Both the position numbers and the translations under genes were made by a program. Positions 18,989 to 27,315 of a stretch of 35,158 nucleotides of DNA are shown in pieces. The number at the start of each line of letters is the position of its first letter. Within the stretch, counting starts at the first letter, position 1. Source of the stretch: Eubacterium sp. (GTDB lineage: Bacteria; Bacillota; Clostridia; Acetivibrionales; DSM-1351). Under the pieces are notes generated by a model. The model was given only the letters and a program-made list of their open reading frames with translations, was not told the origin of the DNA and ran no database searches. Location of the stretch: assembly GCA_029266335.1 (NCBI GenBank), contig JAQSXC010000025.1:1-35158 (forward strand), written 5' to 3'.

Positions 18989-19121
18989 GTCCATAAAGTT
19001 ACAATAAATGATTATTTTTTACAAATATTCTTTACTTTAACAAAACTAGGTGTTACTATAAATAATAATTCATGGCTAAAGTATATTTACATCTCAGGCA
19101 TTAGTGATACAATTAAAGTAA

Positions 19122-19219: not shown

Positions 19220-19849
19220 ATGAGTATATTAAATGATATTATGACAATTCAAGAAGCAGCAGCAGAATGGAACATTGACGATTCTACCTTAAGACATGCA
19301 ATTAAGAAGAACAAGTTTAAAACGGATGAGGTTCGGAAAAGTGCAAACACCTGGTTAGTATTAAATTCTGCAATGATTAGATTATATGGACCCAAAGTTA
19401 AGTTTATTAATTTGTTTACTACTGGGTACGAAGGTAAAACTATTGAAACTTTTATTAACACTTTAAAGGAAAACAAAGTTAATATTATTGTAGATGTAAG
19501 AGAAATTCCAATGAGTAGGAAAAAAGGGTTTTCGAAAACAAGTCTTTCCGAGATACTAAATGAAAATGGCATAAAGTACGCTCACTTTAAAGAATTAGGA
19601 AGTCCCAAAAATATAAGAGAAAAGCTTCACAGCGATCATAATTATGATGAATTTTTTAGTGGGTACCGTAAATATTTAGAAACTCAGGCTGAAACAATGG
19701 ATATTGTAAATACAGCTATTTTATCTAATAAAGATACTAATTTTTGTTTATTATGTTTTGAGAAGGACCCAAAAACGTGTCATAGAAGTGTTATTGCTGA
19801 CACAATATCAAAATCACTTGAGTTAGGGGTAAAAATAATAGATTTATAA
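19220..19849 (+). CDS. HTH-DUF488 fusion protein, 209 aa
   Basis: Residues 1 to ~55 are a small helix-turn-helix of the excisionase-like type (MTIQEAAAEWNIDDSTLR, then NTWLVLNSA). The rest is a DUF488 domain, with FTTGYEGKT, VDVREIPMSRKKGFSK and a late CLLCFEKDPKTCHRSVIAD. DUF488 has no settled biochemical role. AGGTG (19209-19213) serves the ATG. First gene of a two-gene cassette between the late terminator and the terminator at 20702, the usual place for accessory genes. The HTH could bind the three operators just upstream (autoregulation), an inference. The DUF488 call is fairly sure. Confidence 0.75.
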   Translation: MSILNDIMTIQEAAAEWNIDDSTLRHAIKKNKFKTDEVRKSANTWLVLNSAMIRLYGPKVKFINLFTTGYEGKTIETFINTLKENKVNIIVDVREIPMSRKKGFSKTSLSEILNENGIKYAHFKELGSPKNIREKLHSDHNYDEFFSGYRKYLETQAETMDIVNTAILSNKDTNFCLLCFEKDPKTCHRSVIADTISKSLELGVKIIDL

Positions 19850-19869
19850 TGGAATAAGGGGGACTGTCC

Positions 19870-20691
19870 GTGGATAATTGGCAAAAGAAAAATGTTCTTA
19901 TGGTTGTTAAAACTTATCCTACTCCGAGTACCAAATACCAAGAAACAGTTTGTACAGCTGGTATTACTGAGGATGGACAATGGATACGCCTATATCCCGT
20001 CAAATTTAGGAACCTTAACCCTGAACAAAAATTTGAAAAGTTTTGCTGGATAGAAATTGACACTATTAAAAATACAAGTGATTTTAGGCCAGAAAGCTTC
20101 AAGGCAAACGCGGACTCTCTTAAGATAATAAGAAAATTGGATTCAAAAGTCGATTTAGAGGAAAGAAAAAATTTTATGTTACCGCTAGTTTCACCTTCAA
20201 TGGAGTACATTAAAAGCGAATATGATATTAGCAAAAAATCTTTAGGCATTTTTAAACCCAAAATAGTAAAAGACATAAAAATAGTATCTGATTCTGAAGA
20301 ATGGACACAAGAACAAAAAAATAAAATGAATCAACTTTCGTTTTTAGATACCGAAACTAAGCCACTTGAAAAAATACCTTGGGAGTTTTCGTTTCAATTT
20401 GAATGTGACAATCCAGACTGTAAAGGTCATAAAATGAAAATTACAGATTGGGAATTCTGCCAAGCATTTCGAAATTTTAGACGTATTTATAAGAGTGATG
20501 AAGTGGCTCATGAAAAACTAAAGGAAAAATATTTAGGATTTTTTAATGATGAAAGAAGAGATTCTTATATTATTGTTGGTACTGTTCACCCACACCCCAC
20601 TTTTATAATAATTGGAATCTTTACATATTTAAAAGACATTAATAATAAAACTAATAAAAAAATTATAGATGGACAATTACCGCTATTTTAA
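19870..20691 (+). CDS. Partner of the DUF488 protein, possible dual-OB protein, 273 aa
   Basis: GTG start with AAGGGGGA six bases upstream, 20 bases after the DUF488 gene. The N-terminus has VLMVVKTYPTPSTKYQET then CTAGITEDGQWIRLYPV, reminiscent of dual OB-fold proteins noted in conflict systems. A zinc-like CDNPDCKGHKMKITDWEF segment lies near 180. It ends in DGQLPLF, a short hydrophobic tail resembling a beta-clamp-binding peptide (QLPLF). Cellular role unknown; with DUF488 it may form a defence or superinfection-exclusion pair. Family call is tentative. Confidence 0.6.
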   Translation: MDNWQKKNVLMVVKTYPTPSTKYQETVCTAGITEDGQWIRLYPVKFRNLNPEQKFEKFCWIEIDTIKNTSDFRPESFKANADSLKIIRKLDSKVDLEERKNFMLPLVSPSMEYIKSEYDISKKSLGIFKPKIVKDIKIVSDSEEWTQEQKNKMNQLSFLDTETKPLEKIPWEFSFQFECDNPDCKGHKMKITDWEFCQAFRNFRRIYKSDEVAHEKLKEKYLGFFNDERRDSYIIVGTVHPHPTFIIIGIFTYLKDINNKTNKKIIDGQLPLF

Positions 20692-20971: not shown

Positions 20972-21964
20972 ATGTTAAAAGAAGATGTAATTATCCGAAT
21001 CCTGAGTAAGGCGATTGATTTCCTTACTCAGGAAACTGCCGTTCAGCTTAGAATCATAATAGAAGAAGAACTCTATAATTATGATCTGCAGCCGGCCGAG
21101 TTTTCTATCATTCCTTACGAAGGAATACCAGAAAAACTTATCTTATTTCTAACAACGAAAAAATTAGAAGGCCTTTCGCCCAGGACACTAAGAAGTTATA
21201 CTCTACACTTAAACAGATTTGCGCGGATCATGCAGAAACGAATTGAGGATATTAATGTAATTGATATCCGGAGGTATCTCGCTCAATATTCAAGTTTAGG
21301 GGTAAAGAATTCTACACTGGATACAGAAATGAGTATCCTCAGAAGCTTTTTTAACTGGCTCGAAGCTGAAGACTACATAATTAAAAGTCCTATGCGCAAA
21401 ATCAAACCTACTAAGAAACCAAAAAGAATCCGAAAAGCATTGTCAGGGGAAGAATTGGAAATGCTGCGCATGGCCTGCTGGACGAAAAGAGAAAAAGCCA
21501 TTCTAGAATTTTTTTATAGTACCGGGGCCCGCCTTGATGAGGTTTATAAGTTAAATAGACTAGACATAGACTGGAATAAGGGCATGGTCAATGTTATTGG
21601 TAAAGGCGATAAAGAAAGGCCAGTATTTCTCAATGCTAAAGCAAAGGTTCATCTCTGGAACTATATTGAGTCCAGAAAAGACAAAAGCGAAGCCCTATTT
21701 GTAGGCTCAAAATTACCTTTTAAACGATTAGGACACCGGGGATATCAAAGAACATTTAACAAACTTGGAGGGAGGGCAGGAATAACAAAATCAGTCCATC
21801 CACACTTAATGAGACATACCACAGCTACGACAGCGGTTAATGCAGGGGCAAGTATTCAAGCTGTACAAAAAATGTTGGGGCATACAGATCCGGCCACAAC
21901 ACAAATATATGCTGACCTCAATACTGAGGAAGTACAAATGAATCACAAAAAATACGTTTCATAA
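20972..21964 (+). CDS. XerC/D-like tyrosine recombinase, 330 aa
   Basis: Site-specific recombinase, full length. The N-terminal ~40 residues are an extra helical segment, then a SAM-like core-binding domain (~50-140, with LSPRTLRSYTLHLNRF). The catalytic domain has Arg187 (STGARLDE), Lys in GKGDKERP (~211-214), H278-L-M-R281, His304 (MLGHTD) and nucleophile Tyr313 (QIYAD). ATG 20972 has GAGGGG upstream and is preferred to ATG 20915, which has none. Driven by a LexA-boxed promoter through a structured leader, so its activity should rise on DNA damage. Roles to consider: excision, dimer resolution, or inversion. Confidence 0.88.
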   Translation: MLKEDVIIRILSKAIDFLTQETAVQLRIIIEEELYNYDLQPAEFSIIPYEGIPEKLILFLTTKKLEGLSPRTLRSYTLHLNRFARIMQKRIEDINVIDIRRYLAQYSSLGVKNSTLDTEMSILRSFFNWLEAEDYIIKSPMRKIKPTKKPKRIRKALSGEELEMLRMACWTKREKAILEFFYSTGARLDEVYKLNRLDIDWNKGMVNVIGKGDKERPVFLNAKAKVHLWNYIESRKDKSEALFVGSKLPFKRLGHRGYQRTFNKLGGRAGITKSVHPHLMRHTTATTAVNAGASIQAVQKMLGHTDPATTQIYADLNTEEVQMNHKKYVS

Positions 21965-21972
21965 ATAGGACA

Positions 21973-22009
21973 ACAAAAAAAGTGAAGATACTGCTTCACT
22001 TTTTTTTGT
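21973..22009. terminator. Bidirectional terminator between convergent genes
   Basis: GTGAAG (21982-21987), ATACTG loop, CTTCAC (21994-21999), flanked by an A-run before and a T-run after that extend the stem. Serves the recombinase on + and the membrane protein on -. Confidence 0.9.
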
Positions 22010-22027
22010 CGCTAATAGTACATGTAA

Positions 22028-22420
22028 TTATTTTTTACTATAGATTTCAGCAGTTTGGTTTGACTTATTGGTTAATTCAATATTAAAGATATCTTTATCA
22101 ACAAATCGGATATAAAATTTCCCTTTATCACTTTCTACAATATATACATTTTCAGACCAATAACCATTTATTACATTTCCAAAAGTTTTTTCATTATAAT
22201 CAATAAAAGATTGAGCTTTTGTTTGCCTGATTTCAAGAAGAGCTGCTTGCTCCTTTTCTTCTTTATTAGCTTGAATTTTTGAGGGTACAATTATTAAAGC
22301 AGCTATGATTGTAAAAATTATAATCGTTCCCAATATCAAAGCTATTGGTCCAGAAATATATTGTAAAATAATTAACTTATCATTATTTATTTCAAGGTTT
22401 GTTTTATTTTTCTTGGACAT
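22028..22420 (-). CDS. Single-pass membrane protein, 130 aa
   Basis: Polar basic start (~1-17), one long hydrophobic segment at about 18-46 (ISGPIALILGTIIIFTIIAA), then a charged helix and a small beta-rich domain of 65 residues. No family recognised. The minus-strand AGGAGGT lies just upstream of the start. It sits in the lysogeny region, so it could be made from the prophage as a surface or exclusion protein (inference). Separated from the XRE gene by a terminator, hence probably its own unit. Confidence 0.65.
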   Translation of the reverse strand: MSKKNKTNLEINNDKLIILQYISGPIALILGTIIIFTIIAALIIVPSKIQANKEEKEQAALLEIRQTKAQSFIDYNEKTFGNVINGYWSENVYIVESDKGKFYIRFVDKDIFNIELTNKSNQTAEIYSKK

Positions 22421-22442
22421 TGAGATACCTCCTAACTATAAA

Positions 22443-22466
22443 ATTATACCATTAACTTACAAAACA
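22443..22466 (-). promoter_or_regulatory. Candidate promoter of the membrane-protein gene
   Basis: On the minus strand a TATAAT (22443-22448 on +) lies 23 bases before the start codon, with TTGTTT at about 18 bases upstream of it overlapping the previous terminator's T-run. Only the -10 is strong. Confidence 0.4.
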
Positions 22467-22470
22467 AAAC

Positions 22471-22498
22471 AACTCCCCTAAAATTACACAGGGGAGTT
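22471..22498 (-). terminator. Terminator after the XRE regulator
   Basis: AACTCCCCT (22471-22479) and AGGGGAGTT (22490-22498) form a perfect 9-bp stem. On the minus strand it is followed by GTTTTGTTTTG. It begins at the XRE stop codon. Confidence 0.8.
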
Positions 22499-22707
22499 TA
22501 TTTTTTATCAGGAACATATTCAATTAAATCTGAAATTGTACAATTTAAAGCTTTGCATATCTTATCTAAATGACCAGGGATAATTCGCTGTATAGTACCG
22601 TAAGTATACTTATTTATTGTTCCAGGACGAATCCCAGTTTCAATACTCAACCAATTTTGAGATATATTTTTGTCTATTAGAATGTCCGATAGTTTATATT
22701 TTATCAT
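22498..22707 (-). CDS. Small XRE-family (Cro/CI) regulator, 69 aa
   Basis: Single helix-turn-helix domain: KLSDILIDKNISQNWLSIETGI, then a recognition helix around RPGTINKYTYG, then LDKICKALNCTISDLIEY, the typical XRE ending. No other domain. The minus-strand GAGGTGG lies upstream of the start. It is divergent from the Spo0A-like gene with about 145 bases between, so it may control both itself and that gene. A host-derived regulator such as a HipB/YozG-like protein is an alternative. Confidence 0.8.
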   Translation of the reverse strand: MIKYKLSDILIDKNISQNWLSIETGIRPGTINKYTYGTIQRIIPGHLDKICKALNCTISDLIEYVPDKK

Positions 22708-22852
22708 TATAAAGCCACCTCATAACTTAAAATTCTATCATGAGATTTCGATTTTTTTTGGAAAATGACGCGTGGAGTAGAACATGCTATTGAAATCCAT
22801 AAATAGATATTATAAGATATTATGTAAACATTGTTATTTAAGGGGGCTAGTC

Positions 22853-23611
22853 ATGGACAGAATTAAAGTAATCATTGCAGAAGACAATAGAGAAGCTTTA
22901 TATGTAATGGTAGAGCTAATTAACGGTCAACCAGATATGGAGGTTATAGGGGCTTTCATGGACGGGAAAACGGCATACAATGCAATATGTGAGTTAAAAC
23001 CAGACATTATAATACTAGACATAGTAATGCCCGAAATGGATGGAATAGAAGTATTAAACAAGCTGAAGCAAGATGGTAATGACTTTATGACAAAAATAGT
23101 AATATCAAGTGAGCGAATTGAGAAACAACGGAAATTTGCTCATGGTGGATTTGAAGATGTAACGTACTTTATGAAGCCCTTTAACTTCGATGTATTTATA
23201 GATCGAATTAAAATTGCACACGATAATAAAGAAATCCCTATTGCTACTATGAATGAAGAAAGAATGGACAAAATAGACATACCTATAGAAATTGATAAAA
23301 TGTTAAAAGAATTTAATATACAGCCTCCTGGTAGCAGATATATAAAAAAAGCTATGATGCTCTTAATTGCAGATGAGAATATAAGTGTAAAAAAATTATG
23401 CAATATAATAGCAGCAGATGAGGGGACAAGCTGGAATTTTGTTCATCGCAAAATCAGAAGTACGATAGAAACCATTTACAAACATTCAACTCCTGATAAA
23501 TTTAAAAAGGCATTCGGAAAATCTAATTTAGGCTTACTTAATATGGATTTAAATGTAAAAGAAATCCTATTATTTGTAAGATCAGAAATAGAAAAGAAAG
23601 AAAGTAAATAA
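22853..23611 (+). CDS. Spo0A-like response regulator, 252 aa
   Basis: Two-domain regulator resembling Spo0A, the master switch of sporulation. Receiver domain 1-~120: acidic pair Glu10-Asp11, phospho-acceptor Asp56 in IIILDIVMPEMDG (the same number as in B. subtilis Spo0A), and Lys108 in MKPF. The effector domain (~140-245) follows the Spo0A C-terminal fold with SRYIKKAMMLLIADEN, a helix-turn-helix near 190-212 (TSWNFVHRKIRSTIETIY), and the end helix. Residues of the recognition helix differ from Spo0A (TPSRVERAIRHAIE), so DNA preference may differ. AAGGGGG precedes ATG 22853. The phosphorelay site is intact, so host kinases or Spo0B might phosphorylate it. Confidence 0.85.
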   Translation: MDRIKVIIAEDNREALYVMVELINGQPDMEVIGAFMDGKTAYNAICELKPDIIILDIVMPEMDGIEVLNKLKQDGNDFMTKIVISSERIEKQRKFAHGGFEDVTYFMKPFNFDVFIDRIKIAHDNKEIPIATMNEERMDKIDIPIEIDKMLKEFNIQPPGSRYIKKAMMLLIADENISVKKLCNIIAADEGTSWNFVHRKIRSTIETIYKHSTPDKFKKAFGKSNLGLLNMDLNVKEILLFVRSEIEKKESK

Positions 23612-23619
23612 ACCACATT

Positions 23620-23875
23620 TCTGGGTAACCATTTCAAAAGTCTGTAATACTTGGTTCCACAGCATTCTGGGTGTGGGTAACCATACTAGATATGCCATTT
23701 TATGTAAAACCGCTGATACCAAGGGTTACGGGGTTTGTAAAGGTTACCCTGATATGTAATAAACATGAAAAAAATATTTTTTTACCACTATTTTTTTCTA
23801 TGTCTTACTTAAATATCTAAATTTGTGACAGAGTTTCGGTAATTACGAGGATTTTGTCTGGGTAACCATTTCAAA
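23620..23875. repeat. Four GGGTAACC elements
   Basis: The 19-base TCTGGGTAACCATTTCAAA occurs exactly at 23620-23638 and 23857-23875. TGGGTAACCAT recurs at 23674-23684, and the reverse GGTTACCC at 23742-23749. The core is a near-palindrome (GGTAACC). Possible protein-binding sites or iterons. Confidence 0.75.
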
Positions 23876-23935
23876 TATAGGATTATATGGGAGAGGTTTG
23901 ATCTATTTACAAACTTATAAAGCTGATATACAATT

Positions 23936-23988
23936 ACCTCATAGGTTGCTGTACGGCTGGAACATTAGAACAGAGCGACTTGTGAGGT
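23936..23988 (+). ncRNA. Candidate structured RNA with 15-bp helix
   Basis: Bases 23936-23950 pair with 23974-23988 without a gap: 12 Watson-Crick pairs and three G-U pairs. An inner CTG/CAG closes a smaller loop. The G-U pairs would be A-C mismatches on the other strand, so the structure belongs to plus-strand RNA. TTATTTTG follows, so a terminator is an alternative. Confidence 0.45.
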
Positions 23989-24287
23989 TATTTTGCGTGG
24001 ATTTCTTGTATTGATTGAAATATAAATAAAATTCTGTAAATACGAGAGTTATTGAGAAAAATGAAGATAACAGAAGTATAAAATATTATGTTAATTGAGA
24101 TTACAAGCGGGATATAAAGAGATTGCGACCTAAACTATAAAAATATTTAAAAAATGTGTTGACTTTGCTTTTTCTAATTCCCAAACTAAAAAAAGGAGGT
24201 GGTTATTTGAATTTTGAGACGCATTTTTAAACAATTGTGTCACAACTAATAATTTATGTAAAAAGACTAAAAGAGCCATTTTAAGTT

Positions 24288-24317
24288 TTGACTCTGAATG
24301 AGTATGGCAGGTATAAT
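24288..24317 (+). promoter_or_regulatory. Promoter upstream of the 63-aa gene
   Basis: TTGACT (24288-24293), 18-base spacer, TATAAT (24312-24317). Close to consensus. First of two tandem promoters. Confidence 0.65.
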
Positions 24318-24367
24318 ATGCGCAAGAGAAAGGACATGGTATAAAGTGGTCAAAAATTTCAAGATCA

Positions 24368-24396
24368 TTGTAAAGAAAATAGAACGAGTATATAAT
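24368..24396 (+). promoter_or_regulatory. SOS-type promoter upstream of the 63-aa gene
   Basis: TTGTAA (24368-24373), 17-base spacer, TATAAT (24391-24396). The LexA box begins 6 bases after the -10, over the transcription start, as at 17276. Confidence 0.7.
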
Positions 24397-24402
24397 AGGA
24401 TG

Positions 24403-24416
24403 AGAACATATGTTCG
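24403..24416. promoter_or_regulatory. LexA (SOS) box 3
   Basis: AGAACATATGTTCG: perfect GAAC-ATAT-GTTC core, one base from the full palindrome. Overlaps the predicted transcription start of the 24368 promoter. Confidence 0.8.
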
Positions 24417-24742
24417 AAATAGCGTTGAAAAAAATAAGATTGAATATAAATTCATATACCTTATAATGGTAATCAGAGGAGGGATGGAATTTGCTTGTAA
24501 TAAATAAAAAATAAAAGAGAGCCTATTCTTGATCTTTGGTCGGTGACAGAATAGAGATCCCTTAGTGCAAAACCCCAAAAGAGGTTAGCTGTATTAAATA
24601 ATATAATTATATTTTTCATGTATATACGTACAATATACAACATAATAGTAATATAAATTTTTATGCATGTAAAGCTAAATAATTATATTTTAATTAAGTG
24701 ATACCTCTAATGAATAAATTTATTCTTACAGAGGTGAATAAC

Positions 24743-24934
24743 ATGAAAGACAATGAGAACGAGGTATTTGAGTCGTTAATAGTACTCCTGGAAAAACAAC
24801 CAATAGATGTTGCTCTAATTGAAACTATAAGCAGAATTTATAATTCCCAAGACAATTTTATAATGGCTGCTTCATATGTTTATAACTATGGATTTATTGC
24901 AGGGAAGAGGCAAGAAAGACATAAAAGAAAATGA
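24743..24934 (+). CDS. Small SOS-linked protein, 63 aa
   Basis: No family recognised. Acidic N-terminus, leucine-rich helix (FESLIVLLEKQPIDVALIETI), aromatic middle and strongly basic end (GKRQERHKRK). ATG 24743 follows AGAGGTGA; ATG 24698 has no ribosome site. It is the only gene between the tandem promoters with LexA box 3 and the inverted repeat at 24934, so it is the likely product of that SOS unit, with a leader of about 340 bases. Because the CI-like repressor has no autocleavage domain, this could be an antirepressor. That is hypothesis only. Confidence 0.55.
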   Translation: MKDNENEVFESLIVLLEKQPIDVALIETISRIYNSQDNFIMAASYVYNYGFIAGKRQERHKRK

Positions 24935-24981
24935 TGTCCATATGAGTACATAACATGAAAGGTATGTACTCATATGGACAT
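24934..24981. repeat. 19-bp perfect inverted repeat: int terminator or attP
   Basis: ATGTCCATATGAGTACATA (24934-24952) is perfectly inverted at 24963-24981, with 10 bases between. It fits exactly between the stop codons of the 63-aa gene (+) and the serine integrase (-). On the minus strand CATTTTCTTTTATG follows, as for an intrinsic terminator. Its 48-bp span and place beside int also fit an attP of a large serine integrase. Confidence 0.8.
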
Positions 24982-24984
24982 ATT

Positions 24985-26502
24985 CTAAAACATGCTATAT
25001 AGCTCGATTGTAAAATTATCTTCCCTTGCGGTCTTCTCTTTGTTATATACAGCCTTTTCAATGACGCTTTTTAAGAGCATATTTTTTTGAGTTGTAGTAG
25101 CTTTATCGTAGAGGGTCAAAACATCTTGTATCGCATTGATTTCCATATCAACTGTTTGTTTATTATTCAAATTACTAATTTCTTTTTTCAAAATACTTAT
25201 ACTTTGATTAAGTGTTTCAATTCTGTCACCTAAAACTTTTAGTCTTTCTGTAAAAACCTCAACAGTATAAATACCTTTCTCAAGTAAATCATAAGCATTT
25301 TCTCTTTGCTTATTTACTTCGGTTAATTGTTGTTCGTAAGTGTTTATTTCTTCATACTTTTTGTCTTCAGCTTTATTATTGTTTTCAGGCTTATTTAGGC
25401 TTTCTGCTTTAAGTAATTGTAATTTTAATCTCAATTCGTTAAGGATTGTATTTTCAATATGAATAAATTTAGAACTTTTATTTCCGCATTTGTTCCTACA
25501 CATTAAATGTGGCTGAACTCCCGATTTTGAATATGTTCTATATGTTAGTTTTGATCCACAAACACCACATACAACAAGCCCGGATAATGGATTAACAAAT
25601 TCAAGGCTTGGATTAATTGGCGATTTCCGGTGTGTTTTCATAATATTCATCGCCGAATTATATAGTTCATCTGAAATTAATGCTTCATGCTTTCCTTCAA
25701 ACATAACCCATTCATCTACAGGTCTATTTTTTGCAGACTTCTTTTTAGTTGAAGTTCTATATCCATAACGTCTATTAGTTGCTATTTTGCCTGCATATAA
25801 TGGATTTTTTATTAATTCGGCGACTGCATGGCTTGACCATTGGTTACCAAGCGTGGTTTTAATCCCTATACCATTTAATCTATCAGCAATAATCTGGCTG
25901 CCAACATGTTCATATAGGTACCAATTATATATCGTCTTAACAATATTGGCTTCATTCTCATTAATGCTTAAAGTTCTCCCGTTTTTCAATTCCACTATTT
26001 CATAGCCAAATGGTCTTCTGGGACTATTATAATTTCCATCTTCAACAGATCGCTTAATTCCACGTTGCAGTCTCTTTTTTATCATTTTGTACTCTTTACG
26101 GCTCATGAAAGCTTCAAATTCACTGTATTCCTCGTCGAATTCGTCATCTAAGTCATAAGTCTTATTGGGAGTGATTATCTTGGTACCGGTTTTTTTAAAA
26201 GTTTTCAAGATTATCCCTTGTTCTTCCATGTCACCACGACCTAATCTTTGTTGATCCATGCAAAGAATTCCATAGTATAAACCTTGTTCAACTTCTTTAA
26301 GACAGTCTAGCATTTGTGGTCTGTATAAAAGGCTCTCTCCAGAAACAAGTTCTTCAAAAATCTTTACAACATTGAAATTATTCTCTTTAGCGAATTTTAA
26401 TAAATCTCTCCTATGGAAAGAAAGAGTTTCTCCTTTCCCTAATTCTTTTTCAAGTTTTTCGTCTTCTCTTGATTTTCTGAGATATATAGCAACATTTTTC
26501 AC
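24985..26502 (-). CDS. Large serine integrase, 505 aa
   Basis: Unidirectional site-specific recombinase that inserts the phage into the host chromosome. Resolvase domain ~1-150 with nucleophile Ser11 (YLRKSRED) and the RLGRGD arginine loop (86-91). Recombinase domain ~160-290. Zinc ribbon at ~312-339 with Cys312, 315, 335 and 339. Long coiled coil ~355-460 for synapsis control. Full family length. GTG start (26500-26502) with AGAGGGAGAT. It lies 14 bases behind the CI-like gene, so repressor and integrase are made from one leftward message. Confidence 0.93.
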   Translation of the reverse strand: MKNVAIYLRKSREDEKLEKELGKGETLSFHRRDLLKFAKENNFNVVKIFEELVSGESLLYRPQMLDCLKEVEQGLYYGILCMDQQRLGRGDMEEQGIILKTFKKTGTKIITPNKTYDLDDEFDEEYSEFEAFMSRKEYKMIKKRLQRGIKRSVEDGNYNSPRRPFGYEIVELKNGRTLSINENEANIVKTIYNWYLYEHVGSQIIADRLNGIGIKTTLGNQWSSHAVAELIKNPLYAGKIATNRRYGYRTSTKKKSAKNRPVDEWVMFEGKHEALISDELYNSAMNIMKTHRKSPINPSLEFVNPLSGLVVCGVCGSKLTYRTYSKSGVQPHLMCRNKCGNKSSKFIHIENTILNELRLKLQLLKAESLNKPENNNKAEDKKYEEINTYEQQLTEVNKQRENAYDLLEKGIYTVEVFTERLKVLGDRIETLNQSISILKKEISNLNNKQTVDMEINAIQDVLTLYDKATTTQKNMLLKSVIEKAVYNKEKTAREDNFTIELYSMF

Positions 26503-26516
26503 TTTTTATCTCCCTC

Positions 26517-26858
26517 TTAATTGTTACTAGACTTGGTATATACATTAATTGTATCTTCAAAGTGTTTTATTATTAATATTCGCTGGTCATCAGGCATTGT
26601 TGCAATAATTCTCGCAAATTTTAAGAATTTTTGTTCCAGTACATTTTTAGCTAAAAGCTTGTCATTACTATCAACTCCTAATAGATAGTCAGTAGTAACA
26701 TTAAAATATAGTGCTATTTTTTTTAATTTTTCACCTGAAGGAGATGAACTATCCCAAGTCCTCAACAATCCTTTACCAAAACCCAGTTCTCTTTCAACAG
26801 CAGTCATAGTTGTGCCTTTTTCAGTACATAAATCTTTCAGTCTACTTACTATTGTCAT
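26517..26858 (-). CDS. CI-like repressor (XRE HTH, no peptidase domain), 113 aa
   Basis: Probable lysogeny repressor. Residues 1-65 are an XRE helix-turn-helix with TTMTAVERELGFGKGLLRTW and the typical FNVTTDYLLG ending. Residues 66-113 form a helical tail for dimer contacts. The S24 (LexA-like) autocleavage domain of many CI proteins is absent. The start is residue Met of MTIVSRLKD; the ORF upstream of it would cross the early promoter. CGGAG lies 6-8 bases upstream. It faces away from the early promoter at 26913, whose spacer is a palindromic operator. Confidence 0.85.
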   Translation of the reverse strand: MTIVSRLKDLCTEKGTTMTAVERELGFGKGLLRTWDSSSPSGEKLKKIALYFNVTTDYLLGVDSNDKLLAKNVLEQKFLKFARIIATMPDDQRILIIKHFEDTINVYTKSSNN

Positions 26859-26912
26859 AACATACACTCCGATATAATAAAATAAATAGCAGAAAAAAAT
26901 AGTATATGCCAT

Positions 26913-26941
26913 TGACAAGACGAATATTCTCGTCTATAATA
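26913..26941 (+). promoter_or_regulatory. Early rightward promoter with operator in the spacer
   Basis: Perfect TTGACA (26913-26918), 17-base spacer, perfect TATAAT (26936-26941). The spacer holds AGACGA (26919-26924) and TCGTCT (26931-26936), inverted around ATATTC. A repressor bound here would lie on the RNA polymerase site. Expected start of the early lytic message. Confidence 0.9.
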
Positions 26942-27123: not shown

Positions 27124-27315
27124 ATGGCAGATTTTGAAAAGGAGGTAAGAAAGAAGCTAATTGATTTAGAAATGTCTATTCCTGAACTTTGTAAATCTAT
27201 TGGTATTTCAACCCCTTACCTATATGACGTCTTTAAAGGGAATAGAAAGGCAAAAGAACTGAAAGGAAAGGTATGTGCGTATTTAAATCTTCCGCCAAGC
27301 TTAATATCAAAATAG
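27124..27315 (+). CDS. Cro-like XRE regulator, 63 aa
   Basis: First gene of the early operon, divergent from the CI-like gene, the classic place of Cro. Single helix-turn-helix: FEKEVRKKLIDLEMSIPELC, then a GISTPYLYDVFKGNRKAKE recognition segment, the pattern of small Clostridial phage regulators. Perfect AAGGAGGT ribosome site. Likely binds the operator at 26919-26936 and weakens the CI message. Confidence 0.8.
   Translation: MADFEKEVRKKLIDLEMSIPELCKSIGISTPYLYDVFKGNRKAKELKGKVCAYLNLPPSLISK

Follow-up and report, generated by a model that had tools for sequence, protein, structure and literature searches.

Phage control of sporulation has precedents in sigma factors and in truncated spo0A genes (PMC10294663). 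The gut-virome survey that reports the latter (Schwartz et al. 2023), in the parts accessible to us, describes phage spo0A homologues as truncated and receiver-less, and presents an alignment of 29 virome sequences. Prophages also carry homologues of Rap, Spo0E and AbrB, which may adjust the initiation of sporulation and act upstream of or beside Spo0A (PMC10075063, accessible portions). Among bacteria, C. thermocellum has a chromosomal, full-length Spo0A paralogue besides its sporulation regulator (Clo1313_0637/Cthe_3087; 49% identical to B. subtilis Spo0A), for which a role in stress has been suggested by its authors (PMC4890492, PMC3804516, as excerpted). Spo0A of Clostridia was once thought to be phosphorylated directly by orphan histidine kinases, although components of a phosphorelay have since been identified in some of these bacteria (PMC11210211, likewise excerpted).

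Here we describe a temperate phage that carries a Spo0A-family protein complete with a receiver. The window analysed (the whole 35,158-nucleotide contig, part of the 356-contig bin G000) has identical first and last 99 bases, and this exact terminal overlap indicates a circular phage genome of 35,059 bp. PHROG profiles match terminase, portal, protease, head, tape measure, endolysin and holin genes. Structural, packaging and lysis genes share one genome with repressor and recombinase genes, in agreement with the temperate phage of the original prediction. No Rfam family was matched at the gathering score between positions 19000 and 27500, and the window contains no tRNA gene. A search for an att repeat shared by the window and the ends of prophages in three same-genus genomes (G005, G006 and G008) gave matches of only 11-14 bases. 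Nine stretches of the genus that encode homologues of the serine recombinase (45-54% identity) had neither window-like phage structural genes around them nor an att site.

Table 1. Features around the Spo0A-like gene (window coordinates)
Feature	Position	Strand	Remarks
Candidate defence pair PDC-M19A + PDC-M19B	19220..20691	+	two genes, same accessory region
XerC/D-type tyrosine recombinase	20972..21964	+	330 aa
N-terminally hydrophobic protein, 130 aa	22028..22420	-	no family above cut-off; membrane character read from sequence
XRE (HTH_26) regulator, 69 aa	22498..22707	-	70 bits against a cut-off of 22; divergent from Spo0A-like gene
Divergent intergenic region, 145 bp	22708..22852		promoter-like matches on either strand
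Spo0A-like response regulator	22853..23611	+	252 aa; domain, alignment and model evidence
1.1-kb stretch without long ORF	23612..24736		four GGGTAACC sites
Small ORF, 65 aa	24737..24934	+	downstream of 1.1-kb stretch
Large serine recombinase/integrase, 505 aa	24985..26502	-	family match
Phage repressor-like HTH protein	26517..26918	-	phrog_8, transcriptional regulator (26517-26873 scanned)
Small HTH protein, Cro-like by position	27124..27315	+	phrog_1468

A gene with this affiliation might have reached the contig through an assembly or binning error that joined host DNA to a phage. The contig does derive from a metagenome bin, and parts of 22028-26918 have 25-32% GC, compared with 36% in the late and early regions. 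Moreover, a copy in IMG/VR (UViG_3300042922_001431, corresponding to window positions 138-34675 by coordinates) agrees with the window at every one of the 20,756 bases compared (100%); it is probably the same assembly and hence provides no independent proof. However, the 99-bp circular overlap is exact, phage genes flank the region on both sides (recombinase, repressor and early genes), and a canonical spo0A is located elsewhere in the bin. Three chromosomal stretches of the bin have 33.5-37.8% GC and a fourth, prophage-like one has 41.6%; the AT-rich stretch is therefore unlike typical host DNA. We consider a misassembly, which had been named as a finding that would overturn the prediction, highly improbable.

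The sequence AAGGGGG precedes the ATG of the Spo0A-like frame. Another in-frame ATG lies upstream at 22784, but similarity to Spo0A starts only from the 22853 start. The predicted protein consists of a receiver (residues ~1-122), a linker (123-141) and a Spo0A_C-type effector (142-252) with the recognition helix at ~194-211. Both domains exceed their Pfam cut-offs (Response_reg, 67.9 bits against 30.2, residues 6-119; Spo0A_C, 31.6 bits against 25, residues 151-223), and the protein is thus full-length, as had been proposed. The receiver has E10, D11, D56, S86 and K108. Asp56 and Lys108, the two residues singled out previously, fall in invariant alignment columns, and Asp11 and Ser86 are likewise retained from Spo0A. 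The top NCBIfam model is spore_0_A (108.9 bits, E = 2.5e-31; the runner-up scores 63 bits), and the same 108.9 bits fall short of the 200-bit cut-off of the equivalog TIGR02875. The chromosomal spoIVB-spo0A context is absent, and the surroundings are phage genes. Judged by sequence and context, the protein is a Spo0A-family regulator and not a Spo0A orthologue. Its receiver also sets it apart from the receiver-less definition of phage spo0A given in the accessible text of PMC10294663, with whose homologues it has in common a Spo0A_C DNA-binding domain carried on a phage of a spore-former.

In the full-length AlphaFold model, the receiver is confidently predicted (block means 92-98 for residues 1-70) and the effector is helical. 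The five top Foldseek matches to this model are all full-length DesR, LiaR or VraR, followed by the Spo0A receivers 1QMP and 5WQ0; the window receiver matches 1QMP, a phosphorylated Spo0A receiver, with a TM-score of 0.85-0.89 (normalized to the target). By sequence, the four top PDB chains are also Spo0A receivers, and the effector alone as a phmmer query against the PDB matched no Spo0A chain. With an effector-only model (mean pLDDT 75.6), places 1-7 of the PDB ranking go to the Spo0A effector structures 1LQ1 and 1FC3, with seven chains (TM 0.71-0.79; E 0.015-0.27, none below 0.001). Because the alignments given to AlphaFold held Spo0A rows, this model is biased towards the Spo0A fold. The Spo0A_C score and the modelled fold, set beside the negative phmmer search, point to a C-terminal domain of the Spo0A type, as originally proposed.

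Although the architecture, the phospho-acceptor residues and both folds are those of Spo0A (TIGR02875; 1QMP, 1LQ1, 1FC3), the window protein differs in being phage-borne, in lacking a spoIVB neighbour, in its score below the equivalog cut-off and in several diverged parts. The receiver is 33% and the effector 19% identical to the canonical Spo0A of the host. When conserved columns are defined as those kept in at least 85% of 17 canonical-type Spo0As, the window protein agrees with 25 of the 43 receiver columns and with 20 of the 65 effector columns (by part, 4/19, 4/8, 7/18 and 5/20). The β4-α4/α4 part of the receiver keeps only 2 of 9, which suggests that activation may differ or fail. The C-terminal KPTNSEFIA motif is absent.

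The recognition helix is altered among the residues that we take to contact the 0A box, E213, R214, R217 and H218. Counted from the sequence, the window protein has H, R, R and S at these four positions, with R214 and R217 retained; the Ser at the H218 position is less telling, because most paralogues have Asn there. B. subtilis and C. difficile share the contact residues, and contacts to the 0A box involve G2, C4 and G5 (PMC3485338, accessible portions). The position of E213, by contrast with the His of the window protein, is Glu in all 48 non-phage sequences compared (17/17 canonical-type Spo0As, 29/29 other paralogues of the order, and two paralogues of the bin, on contigs C8 and C117). The canonical-type rows include three IMG/VR contigs, three contigs of phage collections and one plasmid record, all taken as host DNA; among the 29 paralogue rows, from which one duplicate was removed, an aro context is confirmed for one (L013). 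The changed recognition helix noted at the outset is therefore evident in the alignment. Because the E213 position is unlike that of every non-phage sequence, the protein probably does not recognize 0A boxes.

This result bears on the possibility that the protein is directed at the host, where it would hold back or alter sporulation, keeping the cell vegetative or timing the entry of the prophage into the spore. It could do so by competing for kinases, by forming mixed dimers with host Spo0A or by occupying host promoters. Such a role would fit a receiver whose closest relative is Spo0A, an intact phospho-acceptor site, the presence of a canonical spo0A in the bin and the published cases of sporulation control by phages (PMC10294663; Rap, Spo0E and AbrB in PMC10075063; both as accessible). 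However, 0A boxes are probably not read, the β4-α4/α4 part has diverged, and identity to host Spo0A is only 33% and 19% in the two domains. We regard an effect on host sporulation as somewhat unlikely, and rank it second among the explanations considered.

Pattern scans of IMG/VR, based on two alignments and two single proteins, produced six contigs that encode both domains, including that of the window. Two of these carry diverged, full-length proteins, one in a circular phage and the other in a probable prophage region. The first (L180, UViG_3300031555_005360) encodes a protein of 249 aa with a Spo0A_C score of 68.1 bits. Its gene comes after a phage-type lysin gene and is preceded by a small ORF and then an opposite-strand XRE gene, and a recN homologue is found ~3.6 kb further along. 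No terminase was found in this contig with phrog_2; a head-protease homologue is present. The second (L237, UViG_2795385446_000001, phage G454) has a 249-aa frame with Response_reg and Spo0A_C scores of 86.9 and 80.6 bits and 40% identity to host Spo0A. Its terminal overlap of 95 bases and a ParA-like gene indicate a circular, plasmid-like phage. Here the Spo0A-like gene is directly beside a repressor-like gene, after which come further genes of the HTH, replisome organiser and DnaB types.

The recognition helix is altered in both proteins: L237 has R and K in place of E213 and R214, and L180 has I and N in place of R217 and H218, the last of which is a position where paralogues often have Asn. 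Thus, the E213 position is changed in 2 of 3 phage copies compared with 0 of 48 other sequences (Fisher p = 0.002, for sequences that are not independent). All three genes have an HTH regulator gene within two genes, of the XRE type in the window and L180 and repressor-like in L237. The XRE proteins of the window and L180 show only weak similarity (33%, E = 0.002), and no relationship is detectable between the membrane-protein neighbours in the window and L237; we therefore claim no conserved module. For each of the three phage proteins the best PHROG is phrog_37855, a full-length profile of 278 positions and unknown function (96 bits for the window, 122 for L180 and 227 for L237), and so such sequences may already be present in databases. 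Our literature search, with limited coverage of subscription papers, recognized no report of a full-length phage Spo0A. Relative to the receiver-less phage homologues described in the accessible parts of PMC10294663, the receiver-bearing proteins of the window, L180 and L237 appear to be a new form.

We propose, with a probability of roughly 0.4, that a temperate phage of a sporulating clostridium carries this Spo0A-family regulator as an accessory, phosphorylation-gated control over phage or accessory promoters. The evidence that suggests this role comprises the circular phage with its core genes, the retention of D11, D56, S86 and K108, the match of the receiver model to 1QMP, the altered helix in all three phage copies, the HTH neighbour, the lack of 0A-box cores around the window gene, the local cluster of GGGTAACC octamers and a 0A box ahead of the L237 gene. 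Evidence against it is the retention of only 2 of 9 conserved columns in the β4-α4/α4 part, a candidate site, GGGTAACC, that is not shared among the phages, promoter-like matches at a near-chance level, and the fact that the L237 box, which argues for control by host Spo0A in that phage, has no equivalent at the window gene; that the related phages tested lack the gene is compatible with cargo no less than with control. The established part of the proposal consists of the phage location, the domain architecture, the intact phospho-acceptor set, the changed helix and the lack of a close full-length homologue in the genomes searched.

The surroundings of the gene are compatible with this role, and also with cargo. 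Same-genus genomes, to judge from protein identity, carry prophage DNA that resembles that of the window: the tyrosine recombinase is 74-78% identical in G005, G006 and G008, and in G005 the endolysin and holin are 82% and 93% identical. In G005 and G006, this recombinase appears as the end of the late side, and in G008 it abuts the repressor. In the window, 4,552 bp (21965-26516; 25-32% GC by part, compared with 36% in the late and early regions) separate the two. This extra AT-rich DNA, together with the candidate defence pair nearby, marks an accessory region. Furthermore, no Spo0A_C domain was found in 20 related phage contigs (19 relatives by terminase, some of them fragments, and the prophage L232, which has a similar recombinase), and the gene itself thus looks accessory. 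Besides the window's own, at least 79 terminase-related loci exist in IMG/VR, from which the 19 were tested as whole contigs, 14 of them at least 30 kb long. The assertion that the gene is not in a cargo site is consequently not supported. The XRE gene and the 1.1-kb stretch without a long ORF, also pointed out previously, are both present. The argument that position favours a regulatory role survives in part: the stretch borders the immunity genes and the gene in L237/G454 adjoins a repressor-like gene, which makes the position compatible with control, but the window gene lies in an accessory stretch.

Several other elements were seen in this region. The Spo0A-like gene is flanked by recombinases of two classes, tyrosine (20972-21964) and large serine (24985-26502). 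The small ORF and the serine recombinase gene converge, and the perfect 19-base inverted repeat with a 10-base loop that lies between them (24934-24981) is a candidate terminator or recombination site. PDC-M19A is a DUF488 protein with an N-terminal HTH, and the pair to which it belongs sits between the lysis genes and the recombinase. Adjoining the recombinase of a related prophage (G005:C28:54408-56461; also in L232) is a regulator and kinase pair that by eye resembles AgrA/AgrC. It may be another signalling pair at the corresponding place, of either phage or host origin.

The bin has three further Spo0A-like genes. Contig C300 carries the canonical spo0A, which adjoins spoIVB; the SpoIVB peptidase domain there (L141:9007-10268) is split over two overlapping frames by a frameshift or an assembly error. 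On C117 (L140:691-5335), a Spo0A-like regulator directly follows a gene of 1,267 codons for a CheB-CheR-PAS-histidine kinase, and is 39% identical to the aro-locus paralogue L013. The third gene (C8, G000:C8:5087-5836, L139) is in an aro locus. In two families of the order (G000:C8:5087-5836 and G035, L199:8646-9449), genes for chorismate synthase and HU adjoin a second Spo0A paralogue, and a second Spo0A-like match was found in many genomes of the order. This second protein is possibly the second Spo0A of C. thermocellum, and we infer that the aro-locus paralogue corresponds to Clo1313_0637/Cthe_3087, whose host order is presumably the same as here; on the published identity (accessible text), the phage protein is far more diverged than that chromosomal protein (PMC4890492, PMC3804516).

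Among full-length matches listed at E = 1e-15 or better in 100 related genomes, none reaches 40% identity to the window protein, and the best is L013, at 37%. With stricter limits, a single match other than the protein itself remained among 58 genomes from the order, and a single one among 391 genomes sampled from the class (6 candidates scored per genome). A scan of the genome collection with close-relative patterns gave 30 loci, none of them a full-length close relative; one (L025) is a CheB with a receiver, and L026 has a frame as long as that of L025. In a phylogenetic tree, in which branches are very long overall, the window protein is on an extremely long branch. Its pairing with L013 is weak (support 78/87), and four AU tests of its origin reject no alternative placement (p = 0.45-0.64).

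These results are relevant to the notion that the gene is cargo and serves no function specific to the phage; a Spo0A paralogue captured from a chromosome would now regulate unrelated host genes or be drifting. The accessory position near a candidate defence pair, the second Spo0A in many genomes of the order, the lack of Spo0A_C in all 20 related contigs, the match to L013 and the long branch are all consistent with capture. On the other hand, the frame is open and the catalytic residues are kept, two further phage contigs have similar genes (in the circular one, adjoining a repressor-like gene), and the tree leaves the protein unplaced, with no alternative rejected by the four AU tests. Simple cargo appears to us unlikely, more so than an effect on host sporulation.

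Other candidates from phage and plasmid collections were set aside. The remaining three IMG/VR contigs (L177, L178 and L179) encode Spo0A proteins 46-56% identical to that of the host, at or near contig ends, and are probably host genes beside prophages. One of them (L177, UViG_3300002101_000014) has a serine integrase 46% identical to that of the window ~1.2 kb from spo0A, and the spo0A neighbourhood may be a hot spot for phage integration. In INPHARED, 28 records matched, 8 of them over 80% of the query, and nine (H1-H9) were examined; H71 and H73 are later full-length matches. In six of the nine the gene has as its neighbour a homologue of recN, of spoIVB or of a gene found near spo0A on C300 (glycogen synthase, as judged by eye), indicative of host DNA; the other three have no recognizable phage context. 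A 13.6-kb Sedimentibacter "plasmid" with spo0A (NZ_CP142397.1, L010) consists of a series of genes of chromosomal type (xseAB, arginine repressor, recN, spoIVB and spo0A), possibly an excised or misassembled circle. Separately, a 163-kb plasmid of Paenibacillus bovis (NZ_CP021170.1; L251, L252) encodes a Spo0E-family phosphatase as well as a full-length Spo0A in which the contact residues are retained.

If the protein is a phage regulator with its own sites, these might be visible nearby. The octamer GGGTAACC occurs four times within 245 bp downstream of the gene (23623+, 23675+, 23742- and 23860+; three direct and one inverted, spanning 23623-23867) and nowhere else in the window, where 0.43 copies are expected; 400 first-order simulations gave at most 2. 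Two copies are inside exact 19-base repeats, and in IMG/VR the exact 19-mer is found in this phage only. The cluster was spotted post hoc; when the 1.1-kb stretch was shuffled 300 times, 2 of the resulting sequences contained an 8-mer that occurred four or more times inside 260 bp. The unusual feature is the exact 8-base cluster alone; GGGTAACCA with one mismatch occurs 7 times in the whole window against 4.9 expected, which is no enrichment. The octamer was not found in the stretches read of the G005, G006 and G008 prophages, which lack the gene, and a single copy in one of the nine serine-recombinase stretches is ~7 kb from the recombinase. It is also absent from L180 and L237, and thus is no common feature of phage Spo0A-like loci. 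The repeats could be operators, recombination sites or sites of another protein.

Other signals are near chance. Promoter-like matches number 23 in the 2.6 kb scanned (16.0 expected, s.d. 3.9). The 0A-box core TGNCGAA occurs 14 times in the window (10.2 expected), with none between 17613 and 26140. In the 9.3 kb of L237 there are four cores against 2.0 expected, which is within chance, but one is a perfect 0A box (TGTCGAA, 2539-2545) ~30 bp before the Spo0A-like start, without a counterpart near the window gene. Its placement suggests that the host Spo0A may control the Spo0A-like gene of L237/G454.

Taken together, we rank a phosphorylation-gated phage regulator first, an effect on host sporulation second, cargo third and an artefact last. 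In the preferred reading, a host histidine kinase would phosphorylate Asp56. Orphan kinases were thought to serve this purpose in Clostridia, and phosphorelay components have been found in some (PMC11210211, as excerpted); the "phosphorelay" of the original prediction is therefore better worded more loosely. The phosphorylated protein would then dimerize and bind its own sites rather than host 0A boxes, candidate targets being the divergent promoter region between the XRE and Spo0A-like genes and the four GGGTAACC repeats. Control would thereby extend to phage promoters or to those of the accessory region, tying prophage behaviour to host sporulation or stress signalling. Like the prophage Rap, Spo0E and AbrB homologues, such a gene may adjust events at sporulation initiation, but those act upstream of or beside Spo0A whereas this protein is itself of the Spo0A family (PMC10075063, accessible portions).

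A broader and more doubtful idea is that clostridial phages have repeatedly captured full-length Spo0A and re-aimed its helix, yielding a phosphorylation-gated switch that reads the sporulation kinases and, alongside the repressors of the phage, decides whether to stay, leave or enter the spore. A receiver-less phage Spo0A, the sole form in the survey that we found, cannot listen to host signals. A complete copy, its phosphorylation site intact and its helix changed, would let a prophage sense the sporulation decision of its host and act through sites of its own. Anticipation of sporulation by a prophage would then be directly testable with one protein, host kinases and a 2-kb DNA region.
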